Positions 3,291 through 63,380 of a stretch of 64,000 bases of DNA are shown here, one piece after another. A program made the translations under genes and the position numbers. The notes under the pieces are model-generated. The model was not told the DNA's origin. It ran no database searches and was given only the letters and a program-made list of their open reading frames with translations. Positions within the stretch are counted from its first letter, which is position 1, and each line of letters begins with the position of its first letter. This stretch comes from Rhodohalobacter mucosus (lineage in GTDB: Bacteria > Bacteroidota > Rhodothermia > Balneolales > Balneolaceae), in contig NZ_QGGB01000011.1 of assembly GCF_003150675.1 (NCBI RefSeq), positions 1 through 64,000 of the forward strand, in the 5' to 3' direction.

Positions 3291-3458
3291 TGAATTAAAC
3301 TATGTTAAAAGGTGGATAGGTTTTATTTTTCGGGCTACCATTCAATACCGGGCAGCAACGTTGGGGACTGAGGAATATAACCAATGATTGATTAACTGTT
3401 TGAACAACCAAAACCGTGCATTCGGTCTTCAAGACCCTGAATACACCTAGTAAACCGG

Positions 3459-4187: not shown

Positions 4188-4237
4188 GAACCCCGAAAGC
4201 GGTAAAAACTGTTATTGTGCCTCAATAACGGTTACCT

Positions 4238-45971: not shown

Positions 45972-46901
45972 TCATCTGACCTGGAGGCCGTTGATGTAGA
46001 ACGTGATTGTGTGATCGTTTTGTGAAATAGACCAGCTGAATTCAAGGTGAAGCTTATGGCAAATTTGTTCACACGCAGGAATTCCAAGTCCCAGGTGCAG
46101 CGATCGGGATGAGCTGAAAGGAAGCGAAAAATGAGCAGGGTCGGGTGGTGATTCCGGGTTAAAGGAGTTGGTGACAGAGAGTCGTCCGCTATCTGAAAGG
46201 CTGATTTGAACCGTGTTGCCGGACGCCTGCAGTGCATTTGACGTAAGCTCGGTAAGCATGGTAAGCAACATGCTGAAATCTGATATGATGTTGAAATTCA
46301 AGGGTTTCGGGCTGAATTGGATTCGGTTCCTTTGATCAGACGAAAAACCCGACAAAAGCGAATCCCTGAGCTTTACGGATTCAAACTCTGAAACGTCGGG
46401 TTCCTGATCTCTCGCAAATGATTCTGCACGATTAAGAAATCGAAATATCTCATCTATTCCATCACCCATTTTGCGAAGATACTGCAGTTTTTTTTCGTCA
46501 GACTCATTCTCACTAATAAGATCGAGGTACCCTCTTGCAGCGGTGAGCGGTGATCGAAATTGATGAACGATCATTTGGGATATCGTGCGGTAGTGGCCGA
46601 TCAGAAACGGATCGGTGGGACTTTTTGATTTAACGAGTGTCCATTTTGTGACAGACCGCCCACCAAATGTCAGGGTCTCTTTCTGCATTTGGTAAACACG
46701 ATTATCCGCCTGGCATACCGGGATGCAAGCCGGTATGGAAGTTGGTTTGAAGTATTCTTCAAACTTCTGCTTCGATAGCTTGGGTTCCAGCCTGCTGAAT
46801 TCCTTTTGAGCAGCGCGGTTCAGGTAAAATTCTTCGGTATCTGTATCGCTGTACAAAACCGGCTGGTGATGATCATCAAAGAGTTTGTCAAAGTCTCCCA
46901 T
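45972..46901 (-). CDS. Sensor histidine kinase, probable flagellar regulator
   Basis: 309 residues, no membrane helix, so cytoplasmic. Residues about 10-95 look like a PAS-type sensor; the dimerisation/phosphorylation helix has His113 in VHQFRSPLTAARG; the ATPase domain has the N-box in ELTSNALQASG and LGLGIPACEQI near the end. The usual DxGxG is not evident. It is transcribed away from the flagellar cluster and the flgB promoter is a sigma-54 type, so a FleS/FlrB/FlgS-like role feeding an NtrC-type regulator is likely, but no response regulator gene is in the window. Confidence 0.75.
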   Translation of the reverse strand: MGDFDKLFDDHHQPVLYSDTDTEEFYLNRAAQKEFSRLEPKLSKQKFEEYFKPTSIPACIPVCQADNRVYQMQKETLTFGGRSVTKWTLVKSKSPTDPFLIGHYRTISQMIVHQFRSPLTAARGYLDLISENESDEKKLQYLRKMGDGIDEIFRFLNRAESFARDQEPDVSEFESVKLRDSLLSGFSSDQRNRIQFSPKPLNFNIISDFSMLLTMLTELTSNALQASGNTVQISLSDSGRLSVTNSFNPESPPDPAHFSLPFSSSRSLHLGLGIPACEQICHKLHLEFSWSISQNDHTITFYINGLQVR

Positions 46902-47117
46902 GATAATGGGGTATGTTCATAGTTATTACACACAATGCACCTCACCCGTACCCTTGTGAAACACATAGTATGATATCTACCCGCTTCGGGGCAGGATGTT
47001 TCGGTTGTGAATTTAAATGAGGGCTCACTAATCGTGAAGCCCGGTACCTAAAGCATGTTTCCTGAATTATCGGTAAAAAATTTAACAAACTTAAACTGAA
47101 CTTTCTGTAAGAGATAA

Positions 47118-47134
47118 TTTCCGCCCAACGGAAA
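47118..47134. promoter_or_regulatory. Inverted repeat, candidate activator binding site
   Basis: TTTCCG and CGGAAA are separated by five bases, 64 bases upstream of the -24/-12 element, a distance at which sigma-54 enhancer-binding proteins often bind. The site identity is inference. Confidence 0.4.
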
Positions 47135-47148
47135 AAATTACCTGATAC

Positions 47149-47197: not shown

Positions 47198-47213
47198 TGG
47201 CACGGCTGTTGCC
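47198..47213 (+). promoter_or_regulatory. Sigma-54 (RpoN) promoter of the flgB flagellar operon
   Basis: TGGCACGGCTGTTGCC fits the consensus TGGCACG-N4-TTGC exactly, with GG at 47199-47200 and GC at 47211-47212 ten bases apart. The expected start of transcription is near 47224, 30 bases before the flgB ATG. Sigma-54 promoters need an AAA+ activator. Confidence 0.85.
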
Positions 47214-47253
47214 TCTACAGGGGAGAATACCGACACAAACCAAATGCCCAGTC

Positions 47254-47604
47254 ATGAAAATGATCGATAACGCACATACCACACTTTTGGCAAAAATGAT
47301 GGATGTGTACGCATTAAGGAATAAGACCACAGCGGCTAATATCGCCAATATTGATACGCCCGGATACAAACGGCAACGGGTGGATTTTGAAGATCAGCTT
47401 GCACAAAAGCTGGATTCCGGATCAATGAACCGGCAGGAGATATCGGAAATGAGGGCAGAGGTAAATCAAACCGATATGAAACCTGAACTGGAAGAGGAAC
47501 TGATTGAAATGAGCGACACGCAACTCCGTGTTCAGCTGGTTACACGTGCACTAAGGCATAATTATGAGCAGCTCCGAATGGGAATTATAGGGCGTGCAGG
47601 CTAA
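47254..47604 (+). CDS. flgB: Flagellar basal-body rod protein FlgB
   Basis: 116 residues from MKMIDNAHTTLL. A reading frame open from 47191 would include the sigma-54 promoter and is rejected. The rod-protein N-terminal signature TTAANIANIDTPGYKRQRVDFED is at about 25-47, and the C-terminal helix MSDTQLRVQLVTRALRHNYEQL is present. It forms the proximal rod in the periplasm. First gene of the flagellar operon. Confidence 0.93.
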   Translation: MKMIDNAHTTLLAKMMDVYALRNKTTAANIANIDTPGYKRQRVDFEDQLAQKLDSGSMNRQEISEMRAEVNQTDMKPELEEELIEMSDTQLRVQLVTRALRHNYEQLRMGIIGRAG

Positions 47605-47633: not shown

Positions 47634-48119
47634 ATGGACAGACTATTTAGCACATTTCAGACAGCGTCGAATGCACTAGCCATACAAAGGCAACGTGTAC
47701 AGATTGCTTCGGAGAACCTGGCAAACGCCAATACAACCCGGACCGAGAGCGGTAAAGCATACCGGCCCAAAACGCTTCAAATAGAACGTGCTGAAAATTC
47801 GGTATTTGGAGAAACCCTTCGCAGCCGTCTTCAGCTAAAAACCAGCAGCGGTTTGCATATGGGATCATCAGACGCCCCGCTGCGTGGTGAAGGCCCCCAG
47901 AGCGCAGCGCCCGAGGCACTTGAAGTGAGCCAGGCCCGATACCGGTATGAGTACGATCCTTCACACCCTGACGCTGACGAAAACGGGATGGTTGAGTATC
48001 CTGATGTGGATATGGTGGAGGAGATGACCAGGCTGGTTAGCGCCAACAGGCTTTATGAGGCCAATCTGAGCGTAATTGAGTCAGAAAAAGAAATTATCAA
48101 ACGATCATTTGAAATCTGA
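47634..48119 (+). CDS. flgC: Flagellar basal-body rod protein FlgC
   Basis: 161 residues. ALAIQRQRVQIASENLANANTTRTESGKAYRPK is the N-terminal rod-protein signature, and the C-terminus has GMVEYPDVDMVEEMTRLVSANRLYEAN. Forms the proximal rod with FlgB. Its TGA stop shares one base with the start of the next small gene. Confidence 0.94.
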   Translation: MDRLFSTFQTASNALAIQRQRVQIASENLANANTTRTESGKAYRPKTLQIERAENSVFGETLRSRLQLKTSSGLHMGSSDAPLRGEGPQSAAPEALEVSQARYRYEYDPSHPDADENGMVEYPDVDMVEEMTRLVSANRLYEANLSVIESEKEIIKRSFEI

Positions 48120-48349
48120 TGAGTCAGCCTGCATCCATCAAACCGTCCGGACAATCGCTTCTCAGAACATTCGAAAGGGTTCTGGGAGACAGGGATCCCT
48201 CGGCACAGCCAAAGAGGGAAAACGCCGGTGTTCTGAAGCCTGCTAAAAACGCGGAGACACACAAAACGTTCGAGTTTTACGGCCGAAACGGCAATGTGAA
48301 GGAAGCTGATCCGTATAGAGCCGGTTCCCGTTTTGATCACACTGTATAA
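48119..48349 (+). CDS. Unrecognised small basic protein between flgC and fliE (76 aa)
   Basis: The ATG overlaps the flgC stop by one base, a coupling that supports translation. The 76 residues are polar, basic overall (about 13 Lys/Arg against 9 Asp/Glu), rich in Pro, Gly and Ser, with no membrane helix or signal peptide, so it is probably disordered and cytoplasmic. It ends 28 bases before fliE. I do not know a flagellar protein at this place in other operons. A small rod or MS-ring assembly factor would fit, but that is inference. Confidence 0.6.
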   Translation: MSQPASIKPSGQSLLRTFERVLGDRDPSAQPKRENAGVLKPAKNAETHKTFEFYGRNGNVKEADPYRAGSRFDHTV

Positions 48350-48377: not shown

Positions 48378-48701
48378 ATGGCTATAGATCCGATTACCAT
48401 ACAGGCACTACGCCAAAATCCCGCCATGGAAGGCCGCGATCGCATTCAGGAGGTCGGGTTCAACGATTCATCCAATCCTGAAGGAAGTTTTGCTGATATG
48501 ATTCGCGACGCTGTTCAATCAGTAGATGCCATGCAAAAAGAGTCGGAGACCGGAGTTGAAAATATTCTCGCCGGCAAAGCGGAGAATATTCATGAAGTGA
48601 TGATTTCCATGCAAAAAGCTCAGCTCAGTTTTCAGCTGATGGTTGAAATGAGGAATAAGGCGGTTGAAACGTATCAGGAACTCAGCAGAATGCAAATTTA
48701 A
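48378..48701 (+). CDS. fliE: Flagellar hook-basal body protein FliE
   Basis: 107 residues. GSFADMIRDAVQSVDAMQKESE and ENIHEVMISMQKAQLSFQLMVEMRNKAVETYQELSRMQI match the two conserved helices of FliE, the adapter between MS-ring and rod. Normal length. Confidence 0.95.
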   Translation: MAIDPITIQALRQNPAMEGRDRIQEVGFNDSSNPEGSFADMIRDAVQSVDAMQKESETGVENILAGKAENIHEVMISMQKAQLSFQLMVEMRNKAVETYQELSRMQI

Positions 48702-48724
48702 GCACGACCGGAGACTAACCACTC

Positions 48725-50356
48725 ATGAGACAGTTTTTTTTCAATTTTAAAAATTTCTTTCAGCCGCTGAATGCAGCACAAAAAACACTTTTCGGCGTGT
48801 TTTCGACAGGTTTGTTGCTGCTTATCGGTATGATTTTTTACTGGGCGCTGACCCCCAGCTACTCCATGCTTTTTGGTTCGCTGGCCCCGGATGCGGCGCA
48901 TGAGATCGTTGAGGAGCTGAAAACGATGGGAGTTAAATACGAGCTTCAGGACGATGGCCGCACCATAAGGGTACCCAGCGACCGCGTGTACGATTTGCGC
49001 CTTCGGTTTGCCTCATCAGGATTGGGCGGAAGCGAATATAAAGGATATGAGCTGTTCGATCAGAATGCACTGGGTATGACCGATTTTATGCAGCGACTGA
49101 ATCAGAAACGGGCACTTGAGGGAGAACTGGCACGCACGATTAACAATCTTGATCAGGTTGACGATTCAAGAATACATATCGTGCTTCCCGATCGGTCGCC
49201 ATTTCAGCAGACAGCTGCTGAACCGACAGCATCCGTAATCCTGAATATGAAAGGAGGCCGCAGCCTGGGGCGCGACCAGGTAGACGGCATCAGCTCACTG
49301 ATCGCAGGTTCTGTAGAGGGGCTTACCCAGGAAAATGTTGTTATTCTGGATCAGCGGGGAAACAGGATTTCCGACAATGTTAGCCCGGAAGCGGACATAG
49401 CAGGAAACTCGGCCAACGTTAAGCTGAGAAAGGAGATGGAAGCCTATCTGACGGATAAAGGTCAAACCATGCTCGATCGGGTATTGGGCCCCGGCAACAG
49501 CATACTCCGTGTATCCACAGAGCACAATTTTGATAAAATTATACGGGAGTCGAACATCATCGACCCTGAATCCCGCATCATCATCTCGGAAGAGAGAAGA
49601 TCAACACGGAATGCAGGGACAACCTCTCAGCCCGTTCAGAATGAAGAGGGAGTTGAACCATTTATAGCAAACAATACGGAAGACGAGTCGACGGTACAGC
49701 TTCGCAATTATGATGTAACAAAAACAGTGCAGCAGGAGGAGATAGGATCGGGTGAAATTACGCGTATATCAGCGTCGCTGCTTCTGAACCATAAACTGGA
49801 GACTTCTGAAAGCGGGGAACAGGAGTATATACCGTACAGTAATCAGGAGCTGAATGAAATTCGTGAGGTGATAGCCGGCGCACTGGGTATTTCAGCAGAC
49901 AGGGGAGATCTTGTGGCCATCACACAGATGGAGTTTCAGGATCCCTTTATTGAAGACGACACTGCCGGCTGGCTTCCTCAAGCCATTCCATACTCCGAAA
50001 TCATCAAGTACCTCTTTCTCTCCATCGTCCTCATTGTGGTATCGGTTATGATATACCGCATGTCGAAAAACTTCAGCATCGACTATGATCCGCTAATCGA
50101 GAATGGCCGTGATCCGCAAAAAGATGCAATTGCAGGCAGCAGGTCGGGCAGGGAGCTTACCGAGGGTTCGCCTGAATATGAAGACGAGGACGATGACCAG
50201 AACGATTTTTACGAGCAGAAGATGAGCAAAGAGGCCCGTCTCAAACTGAAAGCCGCACAGTACCGGACCGATGAAGTGAACAAATTTATCGAGTCGAGTC
50301 CGGAACAGGCTGCAAGACTGGTAAGAACGCTTATCAATCAAAATGCAATCCAATAA
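48725..50356 (+). CDS. fliF: Flagellar MS-ring protein FliF
   Basis: 543 residues. Two membrane helices (about 23-43 and 428-446) flank periplasmic ring-building domains, with LRFASSGLGGS and DDSRIHIVLPDRSPF typical of the N-terminal part. The C-terminal cytoplasmic tail is acidic (EYEDEDDDQ) and ends with SSPEQAARLVRTLINQ, the segment that binds FliG, whose gene follows after 11 bases. Confidence 0.96.
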   Translation: MRQFFFNFKNFFQPLNAAQKTLFGVFSTGLLLLIGMIFYWALTPSYSMLFGSLAPDAAHEIVEELKTMGVKYELQDDGRTIRVPSDRVYDLRLRFASSGLGGSEYKGYELFDQNALGMTDFMQRLNQKRALEGELARTINNLDQVDDSRIHIVLPDRSPFQQTAAEPTASVILNMKGGRSLGRDQVDGISSLIAGSVEGLTQENVVILDQRGNRISDNVSPEADIAGNSANVKLRKEMEAYLTDKGQTMLDRVLGPGNSILRVSTEHNFDKIIRESNIIDPESRIIISEERRSTRNAGTTSQPVQNEEGVEPFIANNTEDESTVQLRNYDVTKTVQQEEIGSGEITRISASLLLNHKLETSESGEQEYIPYSNQELNEIREVIAGALGISADRGDLVAITQMEFQDPFIEDDTAGWLPQAIPYSEIIKYLFLSIVLIVVSVMIYRMSKNFSIDYDPLIENGRDPQKDAIAGSRSGRELTEGSPEYEDEDDDQNDFYEQKMSKEARLKLKAAQYRTDEVNKFIESSPEQAARLVRTLINQNAIQ

Positions 50357-50367
50357 ACCCTGAACGG

Positions 50368-51429
50368 ATGATGGAACAACAGGAACAAAGACAAGCTATG
50401 GCACAGGGCGATACCCCGGTCATTAAAAAACCGGGTAACCTTAACGGTATTGAGAAAGCGGCTGTACTGCTGATATCACTTGGGGTTGAAAAAGCGTCCA
50501 AAATTCTGAAGCAGTTGCGCGATGCTGAAGTAGAGCAAATAACACGCGCAATCTCGGATTTGCGAAATGTCAGTTCCGAGGTTGTGAACGCCGTTCAGGA
50601 AGAATATCACGACTTGTTAAGTCAGAAAAAATTTCTGGTGGAAGGAGGCAATGATATCGCCAAAAACCTGCTGGTTGAAGCGAAAGGACAGCAGGAGGCA
50701 GACGAGATGCTTCGGAAACTTGATGCAAAATCGGGCAGTGACGCTTTCAATATTATTCAGAATGCAGAAATAAAAAACATTGTCCATTTCATGGAAAGCG
50801 AGCATCCGCAAATTGCGGCGGTGATACTGGCTCACCTCAAGGTTAGCAAAGCTGCTGACATACTGGCTAAACTTTCGCCGGATTTTCGTTCTGAGGTGGC
50901 AATGCGCATGGCAAGGCTAGGAAACATTTCGGCTGAAGTAATTGATGAACTGTCGTTGGTAATTAAAGACCAGCTGAGTGAGTACACGGATTTCAGCAAT
51001 ATCAGTAAGGGATCGGGAGCTGTGGCGGGCATTCTGAATGAAACGGATATGTCGACCGAGCGTGAGATTCTGGAGAGTATAGAAAAGGTGGATCCGCAGC
51101 TCGCAAAAGAGATCAAGGAGCAGATGTTCATGTTCGAGGATATTCTGGAACTGGAAGACCGCACCATGCAGGATATTGTTGCCAAGATCAATAAACAAGA
51201 CCTGATGATGGCCCTGAAAGGTGTGGAACCCGATATGAAGGAGAAGTTTGTCTCGAATATGTCGACCCGTGCGCGGGAGATCCTGGAGGAGGACCTGGAA
51301 GCATCGGGACCCGCCCATATCAAACAGGTGGAAGAGGCCCGCCAGAATATCTTAAAGACCATTAAGCAGCTCGACCTGGAAGGCAAAATTTCCATCAAGA
51401 AGAAAGATGAAGAGATGTTTGTCGAATAA
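50368..51429 (+). CDS. fliG: Flagellar motor switch protein FliG
   Basis: 353 residues. N-terminal GIEKAAVLLISLGVEKASKI binds FliF; the middle domain has EHPQIAAVILAHL; the MFxF hinge reads MFMFED; the C-terminal torque helix has charged residues in MALKGVEPDMKEKFVSNMSTRAREIL. FliG meets the MotA stator. Full length. Confidence 0.96.
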   Translation: MMEQQEQRQAMAQGDTPVIKKPGNLNGIEKAAVLLISLGVEKASKILKQLRDAEVEQITRAISDLRNVSSEVVNAVQEEYHDLLSQKKFLVEGGNDIAKNLLVEAKGQQEADEMLRKLDAKSGSDAFNIIQNAEIKNIVHFMESEHPQIAAVILAHLKVSKAADILAKLSPDFRSEVAMRMARLGNISAEVIDELSLVIKDQLSEYTDFSNISKGSGAVAGILNETDMSTEREILESIEKVDPQLAKEIKEQMFMFEDILELEDRTMQDIVAKINKQDLMMALKGVEPDMKEKFVSNMSTRAREILEEDLEASGPAHIKQVEEARQNILKTIKQLDLEGKISIKKKDEEMFVE

Positions 51430-51443
51430 AAAATGACAATAGA

Positions 51444-52121
51444 ATGAACCTGCAAGCACCAATGAAAATCAATTACGAAGCACTTTTTAACAGTCACAGC
51501 GCGGCAGCAAGATACAGGAAGGCCGCCGGAGATGATGCACAGGATGAGTCGGCACCGCATGAGGTGTTCACCGGCCCTCAGGTGGAGGAGATTCTCCAGG
51601 CTGAACGGGAACGTCTGGAGAAAAAGTGGGACAAGGAGCGGGCTCAGACCGAAAAGGCCGCTTTTGAAAGAGGGCAGGCAGAAGGATACGAGCAGGCATC
51701 GCAAGAGTTCAGAGCATCTATTGCAGTGATAACAGAAGCTCTCGGAGAAGCAGAAACAGGCCTCCAGCGCATGCTTGAAGAGATTAAGCCGCATATTGCT
51801 TCAGTGGCCTTCGACCTGGCTGAAAAAATACTGGACCTTCCGATTGAAAATGAAGAAGTGAAAAACCGGGTTGCCGGAGCTGTTGAAAAGATAATTGATG
51901 AGCTTTCAACCCATACGGAGGTGGTAATCCATGTTTCACAAAGTGACTACGATCGTGTGAGCGAGATGCTGAAGGAAAAAGAATCAGACCACATTCAACT
52001 GAAGTCCGGATCGGATCTGAATCCTGGAGAGTACAGGATAGACACTCCCAGTGAACAGATTGCCCGTGAATTTAAACATACCCTGGCAAGCTTCAGGGAA
52101 ACCTTTTCGCTGAACCTTTAA
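51444..52121 (+). CDS. fliH: Flagellar export ATPase regulator FliH
   Basis: 225 residues. A long Glu/Arg/Lys/Gln-rich helix (about 40-95) precedes a globular C-terminal domain with VAFDLAEKILD and DLNPGEYRIDTPSEQIAREFKHTLASF. It holds FliI off or onto the export gate. It is 14 bases after fliG and 24 before fliI. Confidence 0.85.
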   Translation: MNLQAPMKINYEALFNSHSAAARYRKAAGDDAQDESAPHEVFTGPQVEEILQAERERLEKKWDKERAQTEKAAFERGQAEGYEQASQEFRASIAVITEALGEAETGLQRMLEEIKPHIASVAFDLAEKILDLPIENEEVKNRVAGAVEKIIDELSTHTEVVIHVSQSDYDRVSEMLKEKESDHIQLKSGSDLNPGEYRIDTPSEQIAREFKHTLASFRETFSLNL

Positions 52122-52145
52122 CAGGGAAAATAAAACGTATCAAAC

Positions 52146-53522
52146 ATGTTTCTGTTAACCTACATCAATGAAATATCATCCCGGCTTGACGACCTGGATC
52201 CGACCGAACGGCGCTACGGGAAGGTGTCATCCGTGATCGGTACCGTTATTGAAGCAACCGGGCTGGATGCATCAGTGGGTGAACTGCATGTGATCCATAC
52301 GGCAGGCGGATCTAAAATTGAGGCGGAGGTTGTGGGTATCAGGGATAATAAATCACTATTGATGCCTCTCGACCGGGTGGAAGGGATCAAGAGCGGCTGC
52401 CTTGTGGAACCCAAGTCAGGTGCCATGTCCATTCGTGTCTCCGAACATCTGCTTGGAAGGGTGATCGATGCAAACGGAAACCCGATAGACAGCCTGGGGC
52501 CGGTTGAAAAACCGGAGCATGTGCCTGTGCATAACGGACCGCCCGGACCCATGGAACGGAAAGCGATCGACACTCCACTGATTACGGGGATTCGTGCGAT
52601 TGATGGTTTTACAACACTGGGCAGGGGCCAGAGAATCGGCATTTTTGCAGGATCGGGTGTGGGTAAAAGTACACTCATGGGGATGATTGCAAAAGAGTCG
52701 GATGCAGATGTAAATGTAATTGCGCTGATAGGTGAGCGTGGCCGCGAGGTAAAAGAGTTTATTGATGAAATACTTGGCCCTGAAGGACTGAGACGATCTG
52801 TTGTTGTTGCCACTACATCAGATAAAGCAGCGATGAGCCGTGTAAAAGCAGCGTTTACCGCATCGGCAGTTGCCGAATACTTTCGCGACCGTGGCAAGAA
52901 TGTACTGCTGATGATGGATTCGGTAACACGTGTAGCCATGGCGCAGCGTGAGATCGGGCTGGCCTCCGGCGAACCGCCCACAACCAAAGGATATACTCCA
53001 AGCGTGTTTGCCATGCTGCCGCAGCTTCTGGAACGAGCCGGATCAACGGAGAAAGGGAGTATAACCGGTCTCTATACTGTACTGGTGGATAACGATGATA
53101 TGAATGAACCCATAGCGGATGCCGTACGGTCGATTCTTGACGGACATATTGTGCTCTCCAGGAAACTGGCTCACAAAAACCACTATCCGGCAATCGATGT
53201 TCTGTCGAGTATCTCCAGGATCATGAACCAGATCGTGCCCGCCGAAAAGACAGAAATTTCCCAAAAAGCCAGAGAACTGCTTGCTGTATATGCAGAGGCT
53301 GAAGACCTGATCAATATCGGAGCATACTCGAAAGGATCGAATCCTAAAATTGATGAAGCCATCGGAAAAATAGATGAGCTCAATGCATTCCTGAAACAGG
53401 GCAGCGGCGGTTACAATCCTGAAACCCTTTGGAACAACCTCGGGAAACTGGTTGCGGATAAGAAAAAGAGTGAAGACGGTAAAAATATACCCGGAAGGAA
53501 TCCGGGTGAGGTGAACGCATGA
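52146..53522 (+). CDS. fliI: Flagellum-specific export ATPase FliI
   Basis: 458 residues, F1-beta-like. Walker A GSGVGKST at 169-176, Walker B in NVLLMMDSVTR, and ALIGERGREVKEF typical of the family. It energises substrate loading at the type III export gate. The end overlaps fliJ by 4 bases. Confidence 0.96.
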   Translation: MFLLTYINEISSRLDDLDPTERRYGKVSSVIGTVIEATGLDASVGELHVIHTAGGSKIEAEVVGIRDNKSLLMPLDRVEGIKSGCLVEPKSGAMSIRVSEHLLGRVIDANGNPIDSLGPVEKPEHVPVHNGPPGPMERKAIDTPLITGIRAIDGFTTLGRGQRIGIFAGSGVGKSTLMGMIAKESDADVNVIALIGERGREVKEFIDEILGPEGLRRSVVVATTSDKAAMSRVKAAFTASAVAEYFRDRGKNVLLMMDSVTRVAMAQREIGLASGEPPTTKGYTPSVFAMLPQLLERAGSTEKGSITGLYTVLVDNDDMNEPIADAVRSILDGHIVLSRKLAHKNHYPAIDVLSSISRIMNQIVPAEKTEISQKARELLAVYAEAEDLINIGAYSKGSNPKIDEAIGKIDELNAFLKQGSGGYNPETLWNNLGKLVADKKKSEDGKNIPGRNPGEVNA

Positions 53523-53962
53523 GTTTCAAATTCAGACTTGAATCGGTATTGACTCTTCGCAGGCACGAGGAAAAGATGGCAAAACAGAAGCTTGCTGGTA
53601 TGCTGAGTGAGCTCTCTGTAATAAAAATTGAGTACCAGCTGAAAAAAGACCGCATGAAAGGACGCGATATTTCTGGAGCGGGAAACCGGACTAAGCAACC
53701 GATTGAGAAAGCCTTTGGAAACCACCTGCTGATCAGCAGTCAGGAATTGAGACATATGAAAATGCGAATTCAGCAGCATGAAGAGGCTGTAGAGCGTCAG
53801 AGGAATCTTGTAGTAGAGACAAACAGAAATGTTAAGATCATCAATAATTTGAAAAAGAAAGCCCTGGTAGAGCATCTCAACGAGCAGAATCGTCGGGAAC
53901 AGATACACCAGAATGAAATCGCAACGCAGATGTATGTGAAACAGACAACATCATGGATATAA
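53519..53962 (+). CDS. fliJ: Flagellar export chaperone/stalk FliJ
   Basis: 147 residues, almost entirely coiled coil. FKFRLESVLTLRRHEEKMAKQKL is the FliJ N-terminal signature. It acts as the gamma-like stalk in the FliI ring. Overlaps fliI by 4 and the next gene by 10 bases, so the three are translated together. Confidence 0.85.
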   Translation: MSFKFRLESVLTLRRHEEKMAKQKLAGMLSELSVIKIEYQLKKDRMKGRDISGAGNRTKQPIEKAFGNHLLISSQELRHMKMRIQQHEEAVERQRNLVVETNRNVKIINNLKKKALVEHLNEQNRREQIHQNEIATQMYVKQTTSWI

Positions 53963-54504
53963 AAAAAATCGCACTATACGCAGGCGGCTTCATTGCGTCG
54001 TTCGTGGTTATGATAGCTCTGATCTACTTTTTGTACCCCTATATCGATTCAGAAAGGGTTGCGGAAGTGAAGGAACAGATCGAAATGCAGGTTAAAGAGC
54101 CGACAGCTTCGCCGAACGTCAGCCCGGCGCAGACGGGTACATCTTCAACCCAGGGATCGTCTTCTGTGCGGGAACGCATGGAAGCTCTGGCTGCGGCTGA
54201 AAGGCAGAAAAGGGAGTATGAGGCAACCATTGATTCTCTGAAAAGTGAAATGGAAAGAATGGCGGAAGAGTACCGGGTAAGCCTGGAAAACCAGGCAGCG
54301 GGTGTGGCAGATGAAGAAGTGGAGAATACAACAAAAACCCTTCTCAACCTGGATGAAGAGACTCTGGCACCGATTGCCAACCGGCTCGATCACTCTGAAT
54401 TAATGAAACTGTATCGCGCGGCAAGCAATATGCAGAGAGAGAAACTGCTGAGTGCACTGGAGCCGGAAAAGGCTTCCGAAATTTTAAAGGAGGCACTTTT
54501 ATGA
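53953..54504 (+). CDS. MotE/YlxF-like flagellar membrane protein (MgtE-N-like domain)
   Basis: 183 residues. A single membrane helix (about 5-29) is followed by a Ser/Thr-rich linker, a coiled coil (about 75-120) and a C-terminal helical domain related to the MgtE N-domain (LAPIANRLDHSELMKLYRAAS...LEPEKASEIL). Position between fliJ and fliK matches Bacillus YlxF; the epsilonproteobacterial relative MotE is a stator-scaffold chaperone. Overlaps fliJ by 10 and fliK by 4 bases. Confidence 0.7.
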   Translation: MDIKKIALYAGGFIASFVVMIALIYFLYPYIDSERVAEVKEQIEMQVKEPTASPNVSPAQTGTSSTQGSSSVRERMEALAAAERQKREYEATIDSLKSEMERMAEEYRVSLENQAAGVADEEVENTTKTLLNLDEETLAPIANRLDHSELMKLYRAASNMQREKLLSALEPEKASEILKEALL

Positions 54505-55985
54505 TTGAATACATCCAGAATACCGCCCAAAAACCTGCAGCAAACGGAGCCCGTAAGCCGGAGGGCGGAAACGAAACGAACCTCCATTCAATCGGTATGA
54601 CTGAGGAGGAGGGCTCATTTGCCGGAACACTGATGTCGGTAATCCGGCGCTTTACCGGGTTCCGCTCAGGTTCCGGGGAAACCCTGTCAACTTCTGAATC
54701 GGGAGGCAATACAGAGGCAGAAGCGGACGCAGCGCTTGATCAACAGAATGCTGCCCCTCTGAACCTGCCAAATGAACTGAAACTGTTGAGCAGTGAAAGC
54801 CCTGAAAACAGCCATATGATATCACCATTGGAACCTAAGAAAGACCAAGCGTCACCGGCCGGAGTGCTTTCTGCGTCTGATACAGCAGATTTGAGCGGTG
54901 CGATGGAGAGCAGCAAGGTAGTGCAAGAAGTCAATTCGGTTTTCAGTGAGCAGACGCAAGATCCGATGACAACTGCGGGAGCGCGGTCTCAAGTTTCAAT
55001 AGCTCTTGAAGAGGCAGCCCGGGCATTTACCGGAATTCAAATTGCAGATAGCGCTGAATTGAAGAGCCCGGATGTGCAGAATAAAGCGTTCGCGTTTACC
55101 GGCAGAGCAGTACAGCCTGCCGCCGGAGTTCATTTGTACACATCAAATGCTCCTTTAAGTACATCCGAGTCAGTAAAAACAATCAGCACTGTACTAAAAG
55201 GGGGCTTTAAGGATCAAAAAAGTGAACCGTCCCCTAATCAGTCCATATCCCCGACTCAATATGGAACTGAAAAAGTTGGTGATGAGATCACCCCGGTAAA
55301 GGAGACGGAAAGGGCGGTGCAGAGTTTAGTTGCGAGACGTACTGAAGCATTTCAGCCGGTACAGGAGAACGGCCCTGTTCTACAGAATTCAAAGACCGTA
55401 ACTCCTGACATTTTCAAGGAGGTTGCAAAGGCAGCCGGGATAAATACTGGTGAATTGCAGCGTACTGCGGATACCAGGACGGTTGAACAGGGTTTCGAAA
55501 CCATCTTGTCGACGACCAGACCGGAGATGTCGCAGCGCAGTGAAGCGGATGTTCAGCTTGTTCGAAAAATACAGCAGGTAGTTAAACAGGAGATTCAGCC
55601 GAACCTGAACGCCGACAAAGCCTGGAAACTTCACAACTTTTCACTCCATGACGGGTCACGGGTTCAGCTTGCATTCCGTCAGCTGGAGGGTGTACTGCAG
55701 CTTCAGCTCTCATCCGTCAATCAGGACCTCAACCGGCTGATACAGATGAACGTACAGGAAATCCGCGACTATCTGCAAAATGAGATGGGCCTGGATATTG
55801 ATCTCCAGTTCGATGAAAACAGATTTTCAAGCGGAGAGGAAATGAACAATGATGAATCCTCAGGCTCAGGGAACACACAGGCCGGTTCCTCTGAAAACAG
55901 GCCATCTTCACGCGTTTTTGCGGAGGAGGCCGTAGCGGGCAGAGCCAGATTTTTTGGATTTAATGACAATGAATGGACTGCCTGA
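54501..55985 (+). CDS. fliK: Flagellar hook-length control protein FliK
   Basis: 494 residues. The first 370 are low-complexity, Ser/Thr/Glu/Gln-rich and without fold, as in FliK rulers. The C-terminal domain (about 375-455) has RVQLAFRQLEGVLQLQLSS and IRDYLQNEMGLDIDLQF, the FliK_C pattern that switches export specificity. Located between ylxF and flgD, as in Bacillus. Overlaps the preceding gene by 4 bases. Confidence 0.88.
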   Translation: MIEYIQNTAQKPAANGARKPEGGNETNLHSIGMTEEEGSFAGTLMSVIRRFTGFRSGSGETLSTSESGGNTEAEADAALDQQNAAPLNLPNELKLLSSESPENSHMISPLEPKKDQASPAGVLSASDTADLSGAMESSKVVQEVNSVFSEQTQDPMTTAGARSQVSIALEEAARAFTGIQIADSAELKSPDVQNKAFAFTGRAVQPAAGVHLYTSNAPLSTSESVKTISTVLKGGFKDQKSEPSPNQSISPTQYGTEKVGDEITPVKETERAVQSLVARRTEAFQPVQENGPVLQNSKTVTPDIFKEVAKAAGINTGELQRTADTRTVEQGFETILSTTRPEMSQRSEADVQLVRKIQQVVKQEIQPNLNADKAWKLHNFSLHDGSRVQLAFRQLEGVLQLQLSSVNQDLNRLIQMNVQEIRDYLQNEMGLDIDLQFDENRFSSGEEMNNDESSGSGNTQAGSSENRPSSRVFAEEAVAGRARFFGFNDNEWTA

Positions 55986-56015
55986 TTCACCCCAATAAAT
56001 CAAACACAATACACT

Positions 56016-56687
56016 ATGGAACTTTCAGGAATACAAGGAGCAGCTTCACCCCTTCAAAGCGGTATTAACGGCAAGGGCAATGCAGCATTGGGAAAAGATG
56101 AATTTTTAAAGCTGCTGATTACTCAGCTTCAGTATCAGGATCCGCTGAATCCTATGGAAGGTACAGAGTTCGCTACCCAGCTTGCACAGTTCAACTCGGT
56201 CGAACAACTGATTAACCTGAATGATGGGGTTAATGGTTTGGCAAACGCTCAGAATATTATGAGTTCAGGATTGAACAACTCACTCGCGTCCAGCCTGACA
56301 GGCAAAACTGCTCGGGTTTTGAGCAATACGGTTCACAGTGACGGAAAGTCTGAACAGGTTATTCACCTGAGACTGCAGGATCTTGCAGCCGAAACGGAGA
56401 TCACCATTCGGGATGCAAACGGAAAAACGATTCGTACGGAAACGCTCAGCAACCTGGGCCGGGGCGATCACTCCTGGACGTGGGATGGAAAAAGCGATTC
56501 GGGCGTACGGGCTCCTGAGGGTGATTATACCATAGAGGTGGCAGCAACGAATGGCGATGATACGGTAAATACACTCACATTTATCGAAGGGCTGGTGGAA
56601 AAAGTGCGATTCACGTCACAGGGAGTAGAACTTCTCGTAAATGGCGTGCGCCTTCCCCTCGGGGATGTAGAGGAGATCGGTGTCTGA
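56016..56687 (+). CDS. flgD: Hook-capping protein FlgD
   Basis: 223 residues. LGKDEFLKLLITQLQYQDPLNPMEGTEFATQLAQFNSVEQL is the N-terminal FlgD signature, followed by an Ig-like domain with TIRDANGKTIRTETL and DGKSDSGVRAPEGDYT. It caps the growing hook and is followed by flgE. Confidence 0.96.
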   Translation: MELSGIQGAASPLQSGINGKGNAALGKDEFLKLLITQLQYQDPLNPMEGTEFATQLAQFNSVEQLINLNDGVNGLANAQNIMSSGLNNSLASSLTGKTARVLSNTVHSDGKSEQVIHLRLQDLAAETEITIRDANGKTIRTETLSNLGRGDHSWTWDGKSDSGVRAPEGDYTIEVAATNGDDTVNTLTFIEGLVEKVRFTSQGVELLVNGVRLPLGDVEEIGV

Positions 56688-56850: not shown

Positions 56851-58467
56851 ATGTCATTAATGAAATCTCTTAATTCAGGAATCAGCGGTCTGCGTGCATT
56901 TCAGACCAAAATGGATGTTATTGGCAATAACATCGCCAATGTGGATACGATCGGCTTCAAGTCGTCGAGGATTACATTCTCGGAAATGCTTAGCCAGCAG
57001 ATCAGCTCAGGCCAGGGGTCATCATCTTCACCACAGGCCGGAGCTCAGGTCGGACTGGGTGTTCGAATATCCGCAATTGAGCGCGATTTTAACCAGGGCG
57101 GTTTGCAAACAACCGGTCGCAGAACCGATGTTGCAATTGAAGGCAACGGCTTTTTCATGGTAAATGAGGGGGACCAGCCTTTCCTTACGCGTGCAGGTAA
57201 TTTTGCATTCAATAAAGACGGTTTTCTGGTTGATCAGTCAGGCAGAAGCGTTCAGGGCTTTAATGCGGACCCGCAGGGCAATATCATTGCTGGCGGTGCA
57301 ACGGAAGATGTACGAATTGATTTTGAAAATATTCTGCCGCCGCAATCCACTCAAAATGTATACGTAGCAGGTAATCTGAACGCTGATACCAGCCTGTCGA
57401 AAATTATTCAGTCTCAGACAGCCTTTACCACTGCGGGCGGTGCCGTGGCAAACGGGACCACTCTGATCAACGATCTGAGCCAGACGACAGCAGCATTCGC
57501 ACCCGGCGATACCATCGACTTTGAGGTAACATTGAATGACGGCAGCGCGGCTGTTGTAAGCCATACCATCGCAGGCGGCGACACACTCGATGACCTTGTA
57601 GCATCTCTCAATGCCGGTCTGGCGGGTGAGGGATCCGTAACACTCGTTGACGGCATCATGGTGCTTCGGTCTGACGTGGTTGGCGAAAGCGATCTGGCTG
57701 TTGGTGAGGTTACCACAACCGGAACCGGAGATATTCGCTCAACCGGATTTCAGGTAACCCAGAACGGCGTGACGGGCAGTAAAACCGTCAGCACAACAGT
57801 TTATGATGAGCTGGGCAGGGCACACACACTGGTTGTGAACCTAACCCATGAGGGAGAAAACCAGTGGAGCTATGAAGCCAGTTTTCTGGATGGACAGGAA
57901 GTGCTCTCCGGGGGAAGCGGTGTCCTGGAATTTGATGAAACAGGCAACCTCGTTTCCGACAACAGCTTTGGAATTGAGTTTGATCCCGGCGACGGCGCAA
58001 ATCCTGTTACGTTCAGCCTGAGCCTTGGTAACCCCGAAACGGGCTCAGCAGTTACCCAGTATGCAGGGTCCTCTTCCGCCAAGGTTACATCACAGGATGG
58101 CTACGGTGAAGGACGCCTTGTCGATTTCAGTATTGACGGTGACGGAAATGTGAACGGTGTTTACAGCAACGGACGAAATGTAACGCTTGCTCAGCTTGCT
58201 ATAGCAACCGTGGCCAACAACAACGGACTTGAAACGGTTGGCGGAGGCATGTTCCGAAATACGCTGGCTTCAGGCGAAATTACCATCAACACAGCCGCAG
58301 ACATGGCTTCTACAAGCATGGCAGCCGGTGTGCTTGAAGGGTCAAACGTAGACCTGGCGCGTGAATTTACAGATATGATTACCGCACAGAGAGCATATCA
58401 GTCAAACGCAAGGATCATCACAACAGCTGATGAACTGCTTACGGAGGCTGTAAATCTGAAGAGATAA
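56851..58467 (+). CDS. flgE: Flagellar hook protein FlgE
   Basis: 538 residues. The N-terminal SLMKSLNSGISGLRAFQTKMDVIGNNIANVDTIGFKSSR and C-terminal SNVDLAREFTDMITAQRAYQSNARIITTADELL are hook-protein signatures; the middle (about 170-300) is a Thr/Ala/Gly-rich insert compared with the shortest FlgE proteins. It polymerises outside the cell. A terminator follows. Confidence 0.95.
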   Translation: MSLMKSLNSGISGLRAFQTKMDVIGNNIANVDTIGFKSSRITFSEMLSQQISSGQGSSSSPQAGAQVGLGVRISAIERDFNQGGLQTTGRRTDVAIEGNGFFMVNEGDQPFLTRAGNFAFNKDGFLVDQSGRSVQGFNADPQGNIIAGGATEDVRIDFENILPPQSTQNVYVAGNLNADTSLSKIIQSQTAFTTAGGAVANGTTLINDLSQTTAAFAPGDTIDFEVTLNDGSAAVVSHTIAGGDTLDDLVASLNAGLAGEGSVTLVDGIMVLRSDVVGESDLAVGEVTTTGTGDIRSTGFQVTQNGVTGSKTVSTTVYDELGRAHTLVVNLTHEGENQWSYEASFLDGQEVLSGGSGVLEFDETGNLVSDNSFGIEFDPGDGANPVTFSLSLGNPETGSAVTQYAGSSSAKVTSQDGYGEGRLVDFSIDGDGNVNGVYSNGRNVTLAQLAIATVANNNGLETVGGGMFRNTLASGEITINTAADMASTSMAAGVLEGSNVDLAREFTDMITAQRAYQSNARIITTADELLTEAVNLKR

Positions 58468-58520
58468 AGAGAGAGGCTAACCCATAAAACACTGCAATAC
58501 CACACACACATAACCTGAAT

Positions 58521-58552
58521 GGGAGCCGGTTTCTGCCGGCTCCCATTTTTTA
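58521..58552 (+). terminator. Intrinsic terminator after flgE
   Basis: GGGAGCCGG/CCGGCTCCC form a perfect 9-bp stem with a 6-base loop and a T tract, 53 bases after the flgE stop. It separates the flgB-flgE transcript from motA. Confidence 0.88.
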
Positions 58553-58597
58553 ATCTGCAAGGCCGGAGAAAAAGCCATTTAAAAAGAGGAAAAGTCT

Positions 58598-58624
58598 TAA
58601 GAAAAGCAGGTGCTATTCCGATAA
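58598..58624 (+). promoter_or_regulatory. Sigma-28 (FliA) type promoter of the motA operon
   Basis: TAAG, exactly 15 bases, then TCCGATAA. The consensus is TAAA-N15-GCCGATAA, so there is one mismatch in each half. It lies 46 bases after the flgE terminator and 39 before the motA start. Confidence 0.7.
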
Positions 58625-58663
58625 AGTAGTAGATACGTAGAAAACCTAAGTAGTGAGTAAACT

Positions 58664-59539
58664 GTGGATAAATCGACTTTATTTGGAATGATAGCAGCTT
58701 TTTTGCTGGTATTAAGCGCAATCGTTTTTCAGGGTGACCTGGGCCTGTTTATCAGTGTTTCATCATTCCTGATCGTAATTGGCGGTGTACTGAGTGTAAC
58801 AGTTGTGAACTACAGCCTGGGTGAGCTCAAGAATGCATGGGTAAGCCTTTTTGAAAATCTGAAAAACAGTGAGATCGATCTGCGTACAGATATAGAACTG
58901 ATGAACATGTTCGCCAGGAAAGTACGCCGCGAAGGAATGCTTGCCGTGGAAGAGGATATTCAGAACATTGAGGATTCTTTTTTGAGAAATGGCTTCATGT
59001 TTGTGCTCGACGGTATGCAAAAAGATACGCTGAATTCAATACTGAATGATCAGCTCGAAAATACCGAACGAACCATGGAAAAAAGCGTCCGCATTCTGGC
59101 TTCCATGGCCGATTACTCACCCGCTTTTGGGATGATCGGTACGGTGATAGGCCTCATTCTGATGCTTCAGAATATTCAGGATCCGGAATCGCTCGGGATA
59201 GGGCTTGCCATTGCGCTGCTTACCACACTCTACGGTACTATTTTTGCGAATATGATTTTTCTGCCGCTTTCAGGAAAGCTGGACAATTTGTCCGAAAAGC
59301 ACATAACCAAGCGGCAGATGTACAAGGCTGCCATCATATCGATCGTGGATGAGGAAAATCCTCGGATTATGGAAAACAAGATGCTCAATTTTCTTCCTCC
59401 ATCGGAGAGGGCAGAATATATGGCGTACTTCGACAAGAATTCGTTTGATAAAAACCGTGAAGAGAAGATTTACGAAAAATGGAAAAATTATCAGAATAAA
59501 TCATGGCAAAATCTGGTGGCGGATCTGGCAACTGGCTGA
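58664..59539 (+). CDS. motA: Flagellar stator protein MotA
   Basis: 291 residues with four membrane helices (about 4-20, 27-46, 150-168 and 182-202). SPAFGMIGTVIGLI and NMIFLPLSGKL carry the two conserved prolines that couple ion flow to torque. The start is GTG at 58664. The end overlaps motB by 37 bases, so the pair is translated together. Ion specificity cannot be told with certainty. Confidence 0.93.
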   Translation: MDKSTLFGMIAAFLLVLSAIVFQGDLGLFISVSSFLIVIGGVLSVTVVNYSLGELKNAWVSLFENLKNSEIDLRTDIELMNMFARKVRREGMLAVEEDIQNIEDSFLRNGFMFVLDGMQKDTLNSILNDQLENTERTMEKSVRILASMADYSPAFGMIGTVIGLILMLQNIQDPESLGIGLAIALLTTLYGTIFANMIFLPLSGKLDNLSEKHITKRQMYKAAIISIVDEENPRIMENKMLNFLPPSERAEYMAYFDKNSFDKNREEKIYEKWKNYQNKSWQNLVADLATG

Positions 59540-60213
59540 TGACTTATGCCGATTTCATCACATTGATGATGATCTTCTTCATCGTGCTGTACACGTTTAC
59601 GCCCGGTGTTGAAAAAAATAAGTTCACGGCAATTATTGGTGCTTTTCAGGGCAACAGGGGGGTTCTGCAGTATGAATCCAATTTCAGCGATGAAATACTT
59701 CAGATCGACCTCCAGAGAGCCAAGAACTGGGAAAAATTTTATGAAACGGTAATGGATGAGAACCTGGGTGAAACCGTGCAGATTGAATTGCTGCCGGACG
59801 GTGTTAAAATTACCCTTGGTGAAGCCGCGCTCTTTGAGACTTTTTCAACTGCCCTGCGGCCTGAATCCGAAATGATTCTCAGGGAGGTGGTTATGGGACT
59901 GGAAAAATATGAGGAGGAAAATGTACGAATCATCGAAATACATGGCCATACAGACAATCGGCCCGTTCGCGCTTCGGGTAATCGCAAATATACGTCGAAC
60001 TGGGAACTTGGAGCCGGCCGTTCCATATCCGTTATGAACTATCTCCGGGATAATTCAAGTGTTGATCCCGGGCAGTTTATCATTACAAGTTTTGCCGAAC
60101 ACAGGCCGATGGCTCCCAATAATTCAGCAGAAAATATGCAGAAAAACCGAAGGGTCGAGGTGCTGATCCGATACGAGTCGGTTAAGCTGGAAGCCGGCAA
60201 CGAGACTCAGTAA
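59503..60213 (+). CDS. motB: Flagellar stator protein MotB
   Basis: 236 residues. One membrane helix near the N-terminus in WLMTYADFITLMMIFF with the essential Asp17, a plug/linker, and a C-terminal OmpA-like peptidoglycan-binding domain (IIEIHGHTDNRPV, then NRRVEVLI). It anchors the stator to the wall. It begins inside the end of motA. Confidence 0.93.
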   Translation: MAKSGGGSGNWLMTYADFITLMMIFFIVLYTFTPGVEKNKFTAIIGAFQGNRGVLQYESNFSDEILQIDLQRAKNWEKFYETVMDENLGETVQIELLPDGVKITLGEAALFETFSTALRPESEMILREVVMGLEKYEEENVRIIEIHGHTDNRPVRASGNRKYTSNWELGAGRSISVMNYLRDNSSVDPGQFIITSFAEHRPMAPNNSAENMQKNRRVEVLIRYESVKLEAGNETQ

Positions 60214-60244
60214 CGTTTATAAACCAAATAAAAGACGTCAGCTC

Positions 60245-60742
60245 ATGGAAAATAACGAACAGGAACATATCGAAGAGACAAGTGAGGAGAAACAGGCTGA
60301 GAAAGGTAAAAAAGGAGCCGGGTTCGGAAAAATTTTCCTGTTTGCCATTGTATTGATCCTCCAGGGAGCGGGGGCTTATGCCATAGTGCAAAAAACGTAT
60401 CCTGACATTTACAATTACCTGAATTCATTCAGCTCCTCGGGCGGATATTATTTTGAGATGGACAATATTATAATCAACCCAAAGAACTCTAACGGCCAAA
60501 GATATCTTATTGTTTCGCTTGCATTTGAGTTTGATAAAAGCAGCGATGTTGCACAGGCCGAAAAGATGAAAGTGGAAATTGTTGACCGTGTGAATTTGCT
60601 CATGATCCAAAAAACCACGGACGAATTAAGCAGCCTTGAGAAGCGGGATGCGATAAAAAATGAGTTGATTACAGCAATGAATGACCTGCTTGGGAAGAGT
60701 GCGGTACGAAATTTGTTCTTTACAAAATACGTGATTCAGTAA
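60245..60742 (+). CDS. fliL: Flagellar basal-body associated protein FliL
   Basis: 165 residues. An acidic N-terminus precedes one membrane helix (about 29-49), then the periplasmic FliL domain with YFEMDNIIINPKNSNGQRYLIVSLAFEF and IKNELITAMNDLLG. It rings the stator. Located 31 bases after motB and 24 before fliM. Confidence 0.92.
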   Translation: MENNEQEHIEETSEEKQAEKGKKGAGFGKIFLFAIVLILQGAGAYAIVQKTYPDIYNYLNSFSSSGGYYFEMDNIIINPKNSNGQRYLIVSLAFEFDKSSDVAQAEKMKVEIVDRVNLLMIQKTTDELSSLEKRDAIKNELITAMNDLLGKSAVRNLFFTKYVIQ

Positions 60743-60766
60743 TGAACAAATTCCGACAACCCACAT

Positions 60767-61714
60767 ATGAACCAAACCGTCAATCAGACACCCGCTGAGC
60801 AGAACGAACGTTACGGGCAGATTCGCGCCTACGATTTCAGGCAGCCAAAGCTGATCAGTAAAGAAGTGATGCGGCTGATGAAGGGTATTCACGAACCGTA
60901 CCTTCGTCATATTAAAAGAATGTATTCGAACCTGCTGGGTGAACCGGTAGAGGTATCTCTGACCGGTACCCGACAGGTAAATTATTCTGCTTATCTGAGT
61001 GAAATTCAACAACCCTCCGCACTCTACACATTTAATATTGAGGAACTGGGCGACTGGGCTGTACTCGAACTGGATCCATCGTTCTGTATTTATTGTGTGG
61101 AACTGCAAAGCGGCGGCTATGGTGAAATGCCGGCCGAAGCCCGGACGCTTACACGGGTAGAGGAGATCATTATAAACAGGCTTGTTGGCAAAATGCTCAG
61201 GGAACTGAGCCATATCTGGTCGTCATATCTGCCTTTTTCTATTCAGCATCACGTTTATGAGCCAAAGCCGGATAGCATCCGGTCCATTTCCGCTCATTCG
61301 ATAGGTATACTGATGCACTTCAGCGTCGAATTCGGAGATCAGAAACGTTCCTTTTCTATCTGTTACCCGAATTCTCTTATCGAGAGCAAAGGAATGAAGG
61401 AGATCACTCACATTGAAGATGCCCCTTCTACTCATAAGGCCCACCCGGGAGACCAAAAACTTCTTGAAGAAGATTTGAAAAGAGTTGAAGTAGATCTAAA
61501 AGTTCTGCTGGGAACAACCAGCATGTCGCTCCGGCAGCTCATCAGCCTTACGAAGGGCGACACACTGATGCTGAATCAGCCAATTGAAGAACCCCTGAAA
61601 ATCCGTGTGGGCAATCAGATTAAAATGACAGGCTATCCCGGCTCTATGAACGGCAAACGCGCCGTTAAGATATTCAACATTGTAAAAAACGGAATGCATT
61701 CACTTGATTTTTAA
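60767..61714 (+). CDS. fliM: Flagellar motor switch protein FliM
   Basis: 315 residues. The middle domain starts at IRAYDFRQPKLISKEVMRLM, has SGGYG near 124 and RTLTRVEEIIINRLVGKML; the C-terminal SPOA domain has LRQLISLTKGDTLMLNQP. The N-terminal 20 residues (MNQTVNQTPAEQNERYG) do not contain the usual LSQxEIDALL helix that binds CheY-P. Everything else looks normal. Confidence 0.92.
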   Translation: MNQTVNQTPAEQNERYGQIRAYDFRQPKLISKEVMRLMKGIHEPYLRHIKRMYSNLLGEPVEVSLTGTRQVNYSAYLSEIQQPSALYTFNIEELGDWAVLELDPSFCIYCVELQSGGYGEMPAEARTLTRVEEIIINRLVGKMLRELSHIWSSYLPFSIQHHVYEPKPDSIRSISAHSIGILMHFSVEFGDQKRSFSICYPNSLIESKGMKEITHIEDAPSTHKAHPGDQKLLEEDLKRVEVDLKVLLGTTSMSLRQLISLTKGDTLMLNQPIEEPLKIRVGNQIKMTGYPGSMNGKRAVKIFNIVKNGMHSLDF

Positions 61715-61732
61715 CTGCAAACAGACAAAACC

Positions 61733-62686
61733 ATGAGCGATCATAATTGGAATAAGACAATCAAAAATTTAAAAACTTCACTTAACACTATTCTAAAGCA
61801 GCTTTCCGGAAAGGCCGCTGCTGCCGAACCGGGTGAGGTGACAGAAGGGGATGAGAAAAAAACATCCAAATTTCTTGAAAACGCGGTACTCTTTAAATGT
61901 ATTGAAGAGAGATTTCAGATAGAAGTAGTTCTGGGTTTCAGGGGCGACTGGAGCTTTCTGGACTCGGACGGTACGCAGGAGCTGACTCACCCTGAGAGAA
62001 GTCTGGCCAATCTATTGTCTGACTTTACGGGCGAGCTTTGCAGCCGCCTGGGTGCGGATCTGAAGCTGGGCGCATTCAGTGAGGTGGATCCGGACTCATC
62101 CAATAGTTTGCTGAACCTTCAGCAGTACAACATGGCAGCCTGGAAAATTAAACCGGGTGAAGAGAGCGAAAGTGCTGAATTGCTTCTGGCGTTCTCTTCT
62201 CCCGATGAAAAGGCAGCAGAGACTTTTCAGAAAATAACAGAGGATGCACCAGAACCCGATACGCCAGGCTTCGTTCAGCTCGCAGAAGAAACGGCTTCAT
62301 CGCTCTTTGCAGGAGCAGGTCAGGGTACACAGGCTGCTTCAGGCGGAATTCGTTCTTCTTCGGATGGCAATAACGTAGAGTTTGAACCCTTTGACAAATC
62401 GGCAAACATCAAAAATTTCCGCGAGATCCGGAATATTGATCTTCTCAAGGATGTGGAAATGGAAATATCCGTGGAACTTGGAAGAAAAAAGGTGCCGCTC
62501 GGTAAAATACTTCAGCTCGTCAAAGGCTCGGTGATTGAACTTGAAAAACTGGCCGGAGAACCGGTCGATCTGCTTGTAAACGGCCGTTGCATTGCACAAG
62601 GAGAAGTTGTTGTGATTGATGAACATTTCGGAATGCGGATTTCAAATCTGCTTGCCGCTCACGACAGCATGAAAATGGGCGCCTGA
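61733..62686 (+). CDS. fliN: Flagellar motor switch protein FliN (long form)
   Basis: 317 residues, about three times the size of minimal FliN. The C-terminal SPOA domain (about 235-315) is standard: LLKDVEMEISVELGRKKVPLGKILQLVKGSVIEL and VDLLVNGRCIAQGEVVVIDEHFGMRI. The N-terminal 220 residues resemble neither the CheC phosphatase of FliY nor another domain I can name; a Ser/Gly linker joins the two. It forms the lower C-ring. Confidence 0.9.
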   Translation: MSDHNWNKTIKNLKTSLNTILKQLSGKAAAAEPGEVTEGDEKKTSKFLENAVLFKCIEERFQIEVVLGFRGDWSFLDSDGTQELTHPERSLANLLSDFTGELCSRLGADLKLGAFSEVDPDSSNSLLNLQQYNMAAWKIKPGEESESAELLLAFSSPDEKAAETFQKITEDAPEPDTPGFVQLAEETASSLFAGAGQGTQAASGGIRSSSDGNNVEFEPFDKSANIKNFREIRNIDLLKDVEMEISVELGRKKVPLGKILQLVKGSVIELEKLAGEPVDLLVNGRCIAQGEVVVIDEHFGMRISNLLAAHDSMKMGA

Positions 62687-62687
62687 T

Positions 62688-63371: not shown

Positions 63372-63380
63372 GAAAGACCA

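Follow-up and report, generated by a model that had tools for sequence, protein, structure and literature searches.

What is understood of flagellar hierarchies comes almost entirely from Proteobacteria and Bacillus. In Bacillus subtilis the fla/che operon follows the order flgBC-fliEFGHIJ-...-fliK-flgD-flgE-...-fliLM(Y)-fliOPQR and is driven by sigma-A (and sigma-D) promoters. The FleSR, FlrBC and FlgSR two-component systems turn on rod and hook genes after a FliF-FliG-export complex has been made from earlier genes (PMC7064773; PMC3930126), and flgB is among the rod and hook genes switched on this way in Pseudomonas aeruginosa (PMC7064773). Sigma-54 has also been linked to flagella beyond Proteobacteria, including in predicted regulons (PMC3162934, PMC12316311). 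The main text of PMC12316311 names neither Balneolales nor Rhodothermales and that of PMC3162934 neither Salinibacter nor Rhodothermus, and the main texts of these two open-licence papers describe neither an flgB promoter nor a paired regulator or enhancer in these lineages.

Here we analysed 64,000 nucleotides of Rhodohalobacter mucosus (the window, C11:1-64000, from a genome of 3.9 Mb in 17 contigs), where a first-pass annotation had proposed a sigma-54 promoter for the flagellar operon beside a divergent histidine kinase. The relevant features of the window are:

45972-46901, minus strand: soluble histidine kinase of 309 aa, divergent from flgB, with HisKA (H113), HATPase_c and a PAS-like N-terminus
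47115-47137, no strand assigned: candidate enhancer palindrome TAATTTCCGCCCAACGGAAAAAA, centred 72 bases before the T of the -24 element
47198-47213, plus strand: TGGCACGGCTGTTGCC, the sigma-54 (-24/-12) element of the flgB operon
47224, plus strand: expected transcription start, predicted from spacing only, 12 bases past the C of TTGC
47254-47604, plus strand: flgB, first gene of the operon
47634-48119, plus strand: flgC
48119-48349, plus strand: small ORF of 76 aa between flgC and fliE, also in relatives, no Pfam match
48378-56687, plus strand: fliE, fliF, fliG, fliH, fliI, fliJ, a small coiled-coil gene, a fliK-like gene and flgD, no gap being longer than 30 bases
56851-64000, plus strand: flgE, motA, motB, fliL, fliM, fliN/Y, fliO and fliP, with fliQ and fliR beyond the window

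The core TGGCAC-N5-TTGC is exact at 47198-47212, its GG and GC lie 10 bases apart, and 30 bases separate the expected start at about 47224 from the flgB ATG at 47254, so that both the spacing and the distance to flgB are as had been claimed. The description of the element as matching the consensus without a mismatch holds for this core and fails at position 16 of the 16-base consensus TGGCACGNNNNTTGCW, where a C in place of A/T is the sole departure from the long form. Using a weight matrix built from relatives, with the copy of this genome left out, the site scored 21.5 of a maximum 23.9 bits, the top of the 64 kb window (runner-up 15.6); across the following 40 kb the best score was 16.4, at a site before flgF. 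An exact core alone is weak evidence, because its 7 copies in the 3.9 Mb genome do not exceed the 8 of a reversed-pattern control, and the genome-wide count was dropped as evidence for this lack of enrichment. It is this count that favours reading the flgB element as a functionless chance match to the consensus. Against it stands conservation, which the annotation had named as a check. Of 129 genomes of the order, 53 encode FlgB, and a search of the 250 bases upstream of the flgB start recovered a -24/-12 element in 52 of the 53, against a mean of 1.6 (maximum 6) for shuffled sequences, 4 for the reverse complement, 2 for the reversed sequence and 0 for the first 250 coding bases; the flagellated genome without a good element is G110. 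When aligned, the sites form a sharp information block, TGGCA[CT]-N5-TTGC, with flat flanks. The negative controls matter here because selection on the consensus itself gives part of this sharpness. Each of the 15 sister-order genomes of the class has, 33-53 bases upstream of flgB, a -24/-12-like element, which in a few deviates from the core at one or two positions. Most genomes from other classes of the phylum have one too, many ending in TTGA, TTGG or TTGT and not TTGC, with 14 of 30 passing the strict threshold. Judged by position and conservation the flgB element is more than chance, and we regard a chance match as having next to no probability.

The Bacillus-like gene order that had been read from this locus was confirmed as flgBC-fliEFGHIJ...flgDE...fliLMNOPQR, with fliE identified by Pfam and the other names from fliE to flgD assigned by sequence and position. 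As flgB through flgD are co-directional with gaps of 30 bases or less, we infer that they form one transcription unit. The run flgBC-fliE-fliF-fliG-fliI is co-directional here and in 12 of 12 other genomes sampled across the phylum, which describes gene layout and not transcripts. The space between flgC and fliE was considered as room for an internal promoter and rejected, as the small ORF fills it. Most of the flagellated genomes examined within the order have this ORF, at a length of 75-80 aa. It has the motif LTxDExxxIxxxF ... YxxxGxxxxxxxRGxxxD and is possibly an undescribed rod or basal-body protein; a gap of ~60 bases replaces it in much of genus g3. Further promoters are possible before flgE and motA because gaps of 163 and 196 bases, respectively, precede them. 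A sigma-28-like match (10/12) was observed in the motA gap (window 58467-58663), and motAB and the following genes may have an additional late promoter. At the consensus used, no sigma-28 promoter was found before fliC or in the flgM region. Beyond the window an FlhF-like protein (L017:3513-5006, minus strand; C11:66512-68005) adjoins flhA. Its match to the FlhF model is confined to the N-terminal part, Pfam finds no SRP-type GTPase domain in it, and no protein of the genome passes the FlhF cut-off.

A search of the genome for rpoN, another check named in advance, found it present, and the encoded protein is complete, with AID, CBD and DBD above their cut-offs and the box ARRTVSKYRE. Of the 129 genomes, flagellated or not, 117 carry the gene, and it was rejected as a discriminator for flagella on that ground; rpoN is necessary yet uninformative about flagella. 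Several flagellated genomes of genus g19, among them the 98% complete G082, have an intact flgB element and no rpoN match, reflecting either assembly gaps or real loss. Elsewhere in R. mucosus, exact sigma-54 cores lie 99 bases before one Hsp20 gene (L001; C1:127201-127215, minus strand), which dnaK follows, and 45 bases before a second (L005; C10:155798-155812, minus strand). From these upstream matches the small heat-shock genes look sigma-54 controlled, and chaperone genes are among the predicted sigma-54 targets in Bacteroidota (PMC3162934, PMC12316311).

Four full sigma-54 activators are encoded in the genome, one in the flagellar cluster on C11 and the others on C4, C10 and C2. With three further activators available, and given that activators can work at a distance and some without specificity, the flgB promoter might be driven by the C4, C10 or C2 protein while the cluster kinase and regulator have another motility role. 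The C2 activator likely has another job, because a kinase of its own accompanies it and the divergent efflux gene alongside is preceded by a sigma-54-like site. At L021 an NtrC-type regulator with its own kinase (2260-4996, plus strand) is divergent from an HlyD-like efflux gene with a sigma-54-like site (2041-2056, minus strand), a self-contained efflux control module. As to the rest, only the regulator of the flagellar cluster tracks flagella, and it stands beside flgB in sister orders, as detailed below. We consider control of flgB by one of the other three activators quite unlikely, and take the cluster regulator as the preferred candidate:

C11:80149-81579, minus strand: NtrC-type response regulator with REC, Sigma54_activat, AAA lid and HTH_8

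This protein retains the phospho-acceptor aspartate and a GAFTGA-type loop, which reads GSFTGA in this genome and at two other loci and GAFTGA in the other seven read. Its gene has a putative flgM as one neighbour; on the opposite side lie flgL and a TPR gene. The annotation had called the kinase divergent from flgB cytoplasmic and PAS-type. Its divergent position and its lack of a transmembrane stretch bear out the first part, while the PAS assignment is weakly supported, by a sub-threshold match (E 0.005, 17.2 of 22.6 bits) and by PAS matches in 4 of 18 orthologs. HisKA matched above its Pfam cut-off and HATPase_c, like PAS, below; H113, N222 and the G-box are invariant among orthologs. The kinase gene is found divergent beside flgB in 49 of the 50 genomes whose contig extends far enough; the flagellated G100 lacks it. 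At the distal end of the cluster a second histidine kinase gene (L018:3461-4699, plus strand) is transcribed divergently from that for flagellin.

The kinase and regulator genes lie 33 kb apart, at opposite ends of the flagellar cluster. An NtrC-type activator near or co-occurring with the kinase, for which the annotation had proposed a search, was found in the cluster, and across genomes it tracks both kinase and flagella: 49 of the 53 flagellated genomes have an ortholog, as does 1 of the remaining 76 (Fisher p ~1e-29, with species not independent; the Fisher and shuffle p-values overstate independence, as the sequence sets share descent). The four flagellated genomes without it are 80-93% complete, and Fodinibius halophilus is the only named isolate of the order found with it. 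The sole non-flagellated genome with the regulator (G078, without a detected flgB) has kinase and regulator ~2.2 kb apart, and the 8.5 kb around them (L184; C166:45500-54000) contain no tested flagellar gene; on this layout the locus is likely what remains of a flagellar cluster since lost. In sister orders the regulator is divergent beside flgB in 8 of 10 loci examined, with a kinase gene between in 6 of those 8, and these regulators score 406-438 bits to the R. mucosus cluster regulator, far above the 273-326 to the next activator of R. mucosus. We pair the orphan kinase with the orphan regulator because a kinase and this regulator are usually adjacent, divergent from flgB, in these sister orders.

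A second sigma-54 site lies 36 bases before flgF (L017:8429-8444, C11:71428-71443; 16.4 bits), and all 17 relatives examined have such an element as well, at 10-95 bases from the called start codon. Another match just before flhB (L017:8199-8213) was rejected, being weak and only 13 bases from the ATG. Upstream of both the flgB and flgF promoters recurs the palindrome AATTTnCC-N7-GGnnAATT, whose EM summed score was 701, compared with a mean of 366 and maximum of 400 for shuffles. With a model made without this genome, the window copy at 47115-47137 ranks first in 134.8 kb and the flgF copy at C11:71272-71294 third; in 18 flgF upstream regions, outside the training set, the palindrome again rose above shuffles (z = 9.4). 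Applied to sister orders, the model gave no clear carry-over. Palindrome centres in relatives fall mostly at -72, -82, -92, -104 and -114 from the -24 element, with helical phasing of R = 0.83 at 10.5 bp (n=39, species not independent). Such whole-turn spacing is what an activator contacting polymerase by looping requires, and we infer that the cluster regulator binds the palindrome. A different repeat, ATATT-N3-AATAT in 17 genomes, was rejected as an enhancer because it is formed by flgB codons (Asn-Ile-Ala-Asn-Ile).

The candidate palindrome sits between divergent genes and could also serve the kinase promoter. This position, and a leader that varies from 26 to 151 bases among relatives, leaving room for other promoters, would fit an flgB element that is real but minor, where a housekeeping promoter does most of the work and sigma-54 provides a boost. 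Yet the -24/-12 element is the only sharply conserved block just before flgB, and sigma-54 promoters normally have no basal activity in the absence of an activator, which leaves this arrangement very improbable.

We are confident that 47198-47213 is a working sigma-54 promoter, and that the kinase acts through the cluster regulator and the palindromes to open the flgB and flgF promoters, as far as can be read from sequence. The promoter would drive the flgB-flgC-(orf)-fliE-fliF-fliG-fliH-fliI-fliJ... unit from a predicted start at 47224. The kinase (45972-46901), presumably sensing a signal, would phosphorylate the regulator (C11:80149-81579), and the phosphorylated form would bind the palindromes at 47115-47137 and C11:71272-71294. 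From there it would open sigma-54 RNA polymerase at the flgB and flgF promoters via ATP hydrolysis and DNA looping. Supporting this at the sequence level are the conservation of the element, rpoN, intact domains, co-occurrence with flagella, adjacency in sister orders, the second promoter and the phased palindromes.

With fliF and fliG placed behind the flgB promoter there are three options: the two-component system is a top-level switch answering another signal, it closes a positive loop, or fliF and fliG are fed by an internal promoter within coding sequence. If the kinase still senses the MS-ring, rotor or export complex, the result would be positive feedback and an all-or-none commitment to flagellation; the loop would close because FliF, FliG and the export proteins come from the same sigma-54 unit. 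It is a tentative idea, and one we would not favour at present, that the system is a top switch, not a mid-assembly checkpoint, and that the flgB sites are ancestral in the wider Bacteroidota. If true, the -24/-12 sites before flgB in other classes would make sigma-54 control ancestral for flagella of this wider group.

The Balneolales lineage is usually regarded as non-swimming. The locus described here places a FleSR-like sigma-54 system atop a Bacillus-like operon, conserved wherever flagellar genes survive. For dozens of genomes, cultured Fodinibius among them, it predicts promoters, an enhancer and a partner regulator. Although they have flagellar genes, Fodinibius species have been described as lacking motility (PMC9909488); the signal for the kinase may be missing in the laboratory. 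Beyond the first-pass annotation, the analysis adds the partner regulator, the flgF promoter, candidate enhancers, a phylum-wide distribution and a conflict with the FlgSR-type checkpoint.

Compared with described systems, the closest are FleS/FleR of Pseudomonas aeruginosa and FlrB/FlrC of Vibrio cholerae, which likewise have a soluble kinase with a PAS-like sensor (a sub-threshold match here), an NtrC-type regulator and sigma-54 flagellar promoters including flgB, the genes for kinase and regulator being linked to the flagellar cluster (PMC7064773). In those systems FleQ/FlrA controls an earlier class that includes fliF/fliG and the export genes (PMC7064773), whereas here they come after flgBC in one predicted unit. 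Unlike them, this cluster has no second, FleQ/FlrA-like activator gene, its kinase and regulator are 33 kb apart, and its FlhF-like protein shows no GTPase domain by Pfam. The FlgS/FlgR system of Campylobacter and Helicobacter shares the soluble kinase, the NtrC-type regulator, sigma-54 rod and hook genes and, in C. jejuni, the lack of a master regulator above, but its MS-ring and export genes are expressed independently (PMC7064773, PMC3930126). The regulator here also misses the cut-offs of all curated equivalog models (FlgR 295 of 750 bits, FlbD 332 of 750). The likeness to FleS/FlrB/FlgS suggested at the outset holds for a soluble kinase and NtrC-type regulator linked to flagellar genes, and breaks down at the FlgR and FlbD cut-offs and at the placing of fliF, fliG and the export genes in the flgB unit. 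Because fliE, fliF, fliG and the export genes are closely packed behind flgBC in a single unit, the scheme of basal body first, rod and hook later cannot apply unchanged, and the generality of that checkpoint is in question, its supposed trigger genes being downstream of the promoter it would control. Relative to the fla/che operon of Bacillus subtilis, the gene order is alike and the promoter predicted here is of the sigma-54 type. The system is largely known in kind and new in its lineage and operon layout, undescribed in the open-licence papers searched, with the second sigma-54 site before flgF and the candidate enhancer palindrome as the elements new here.
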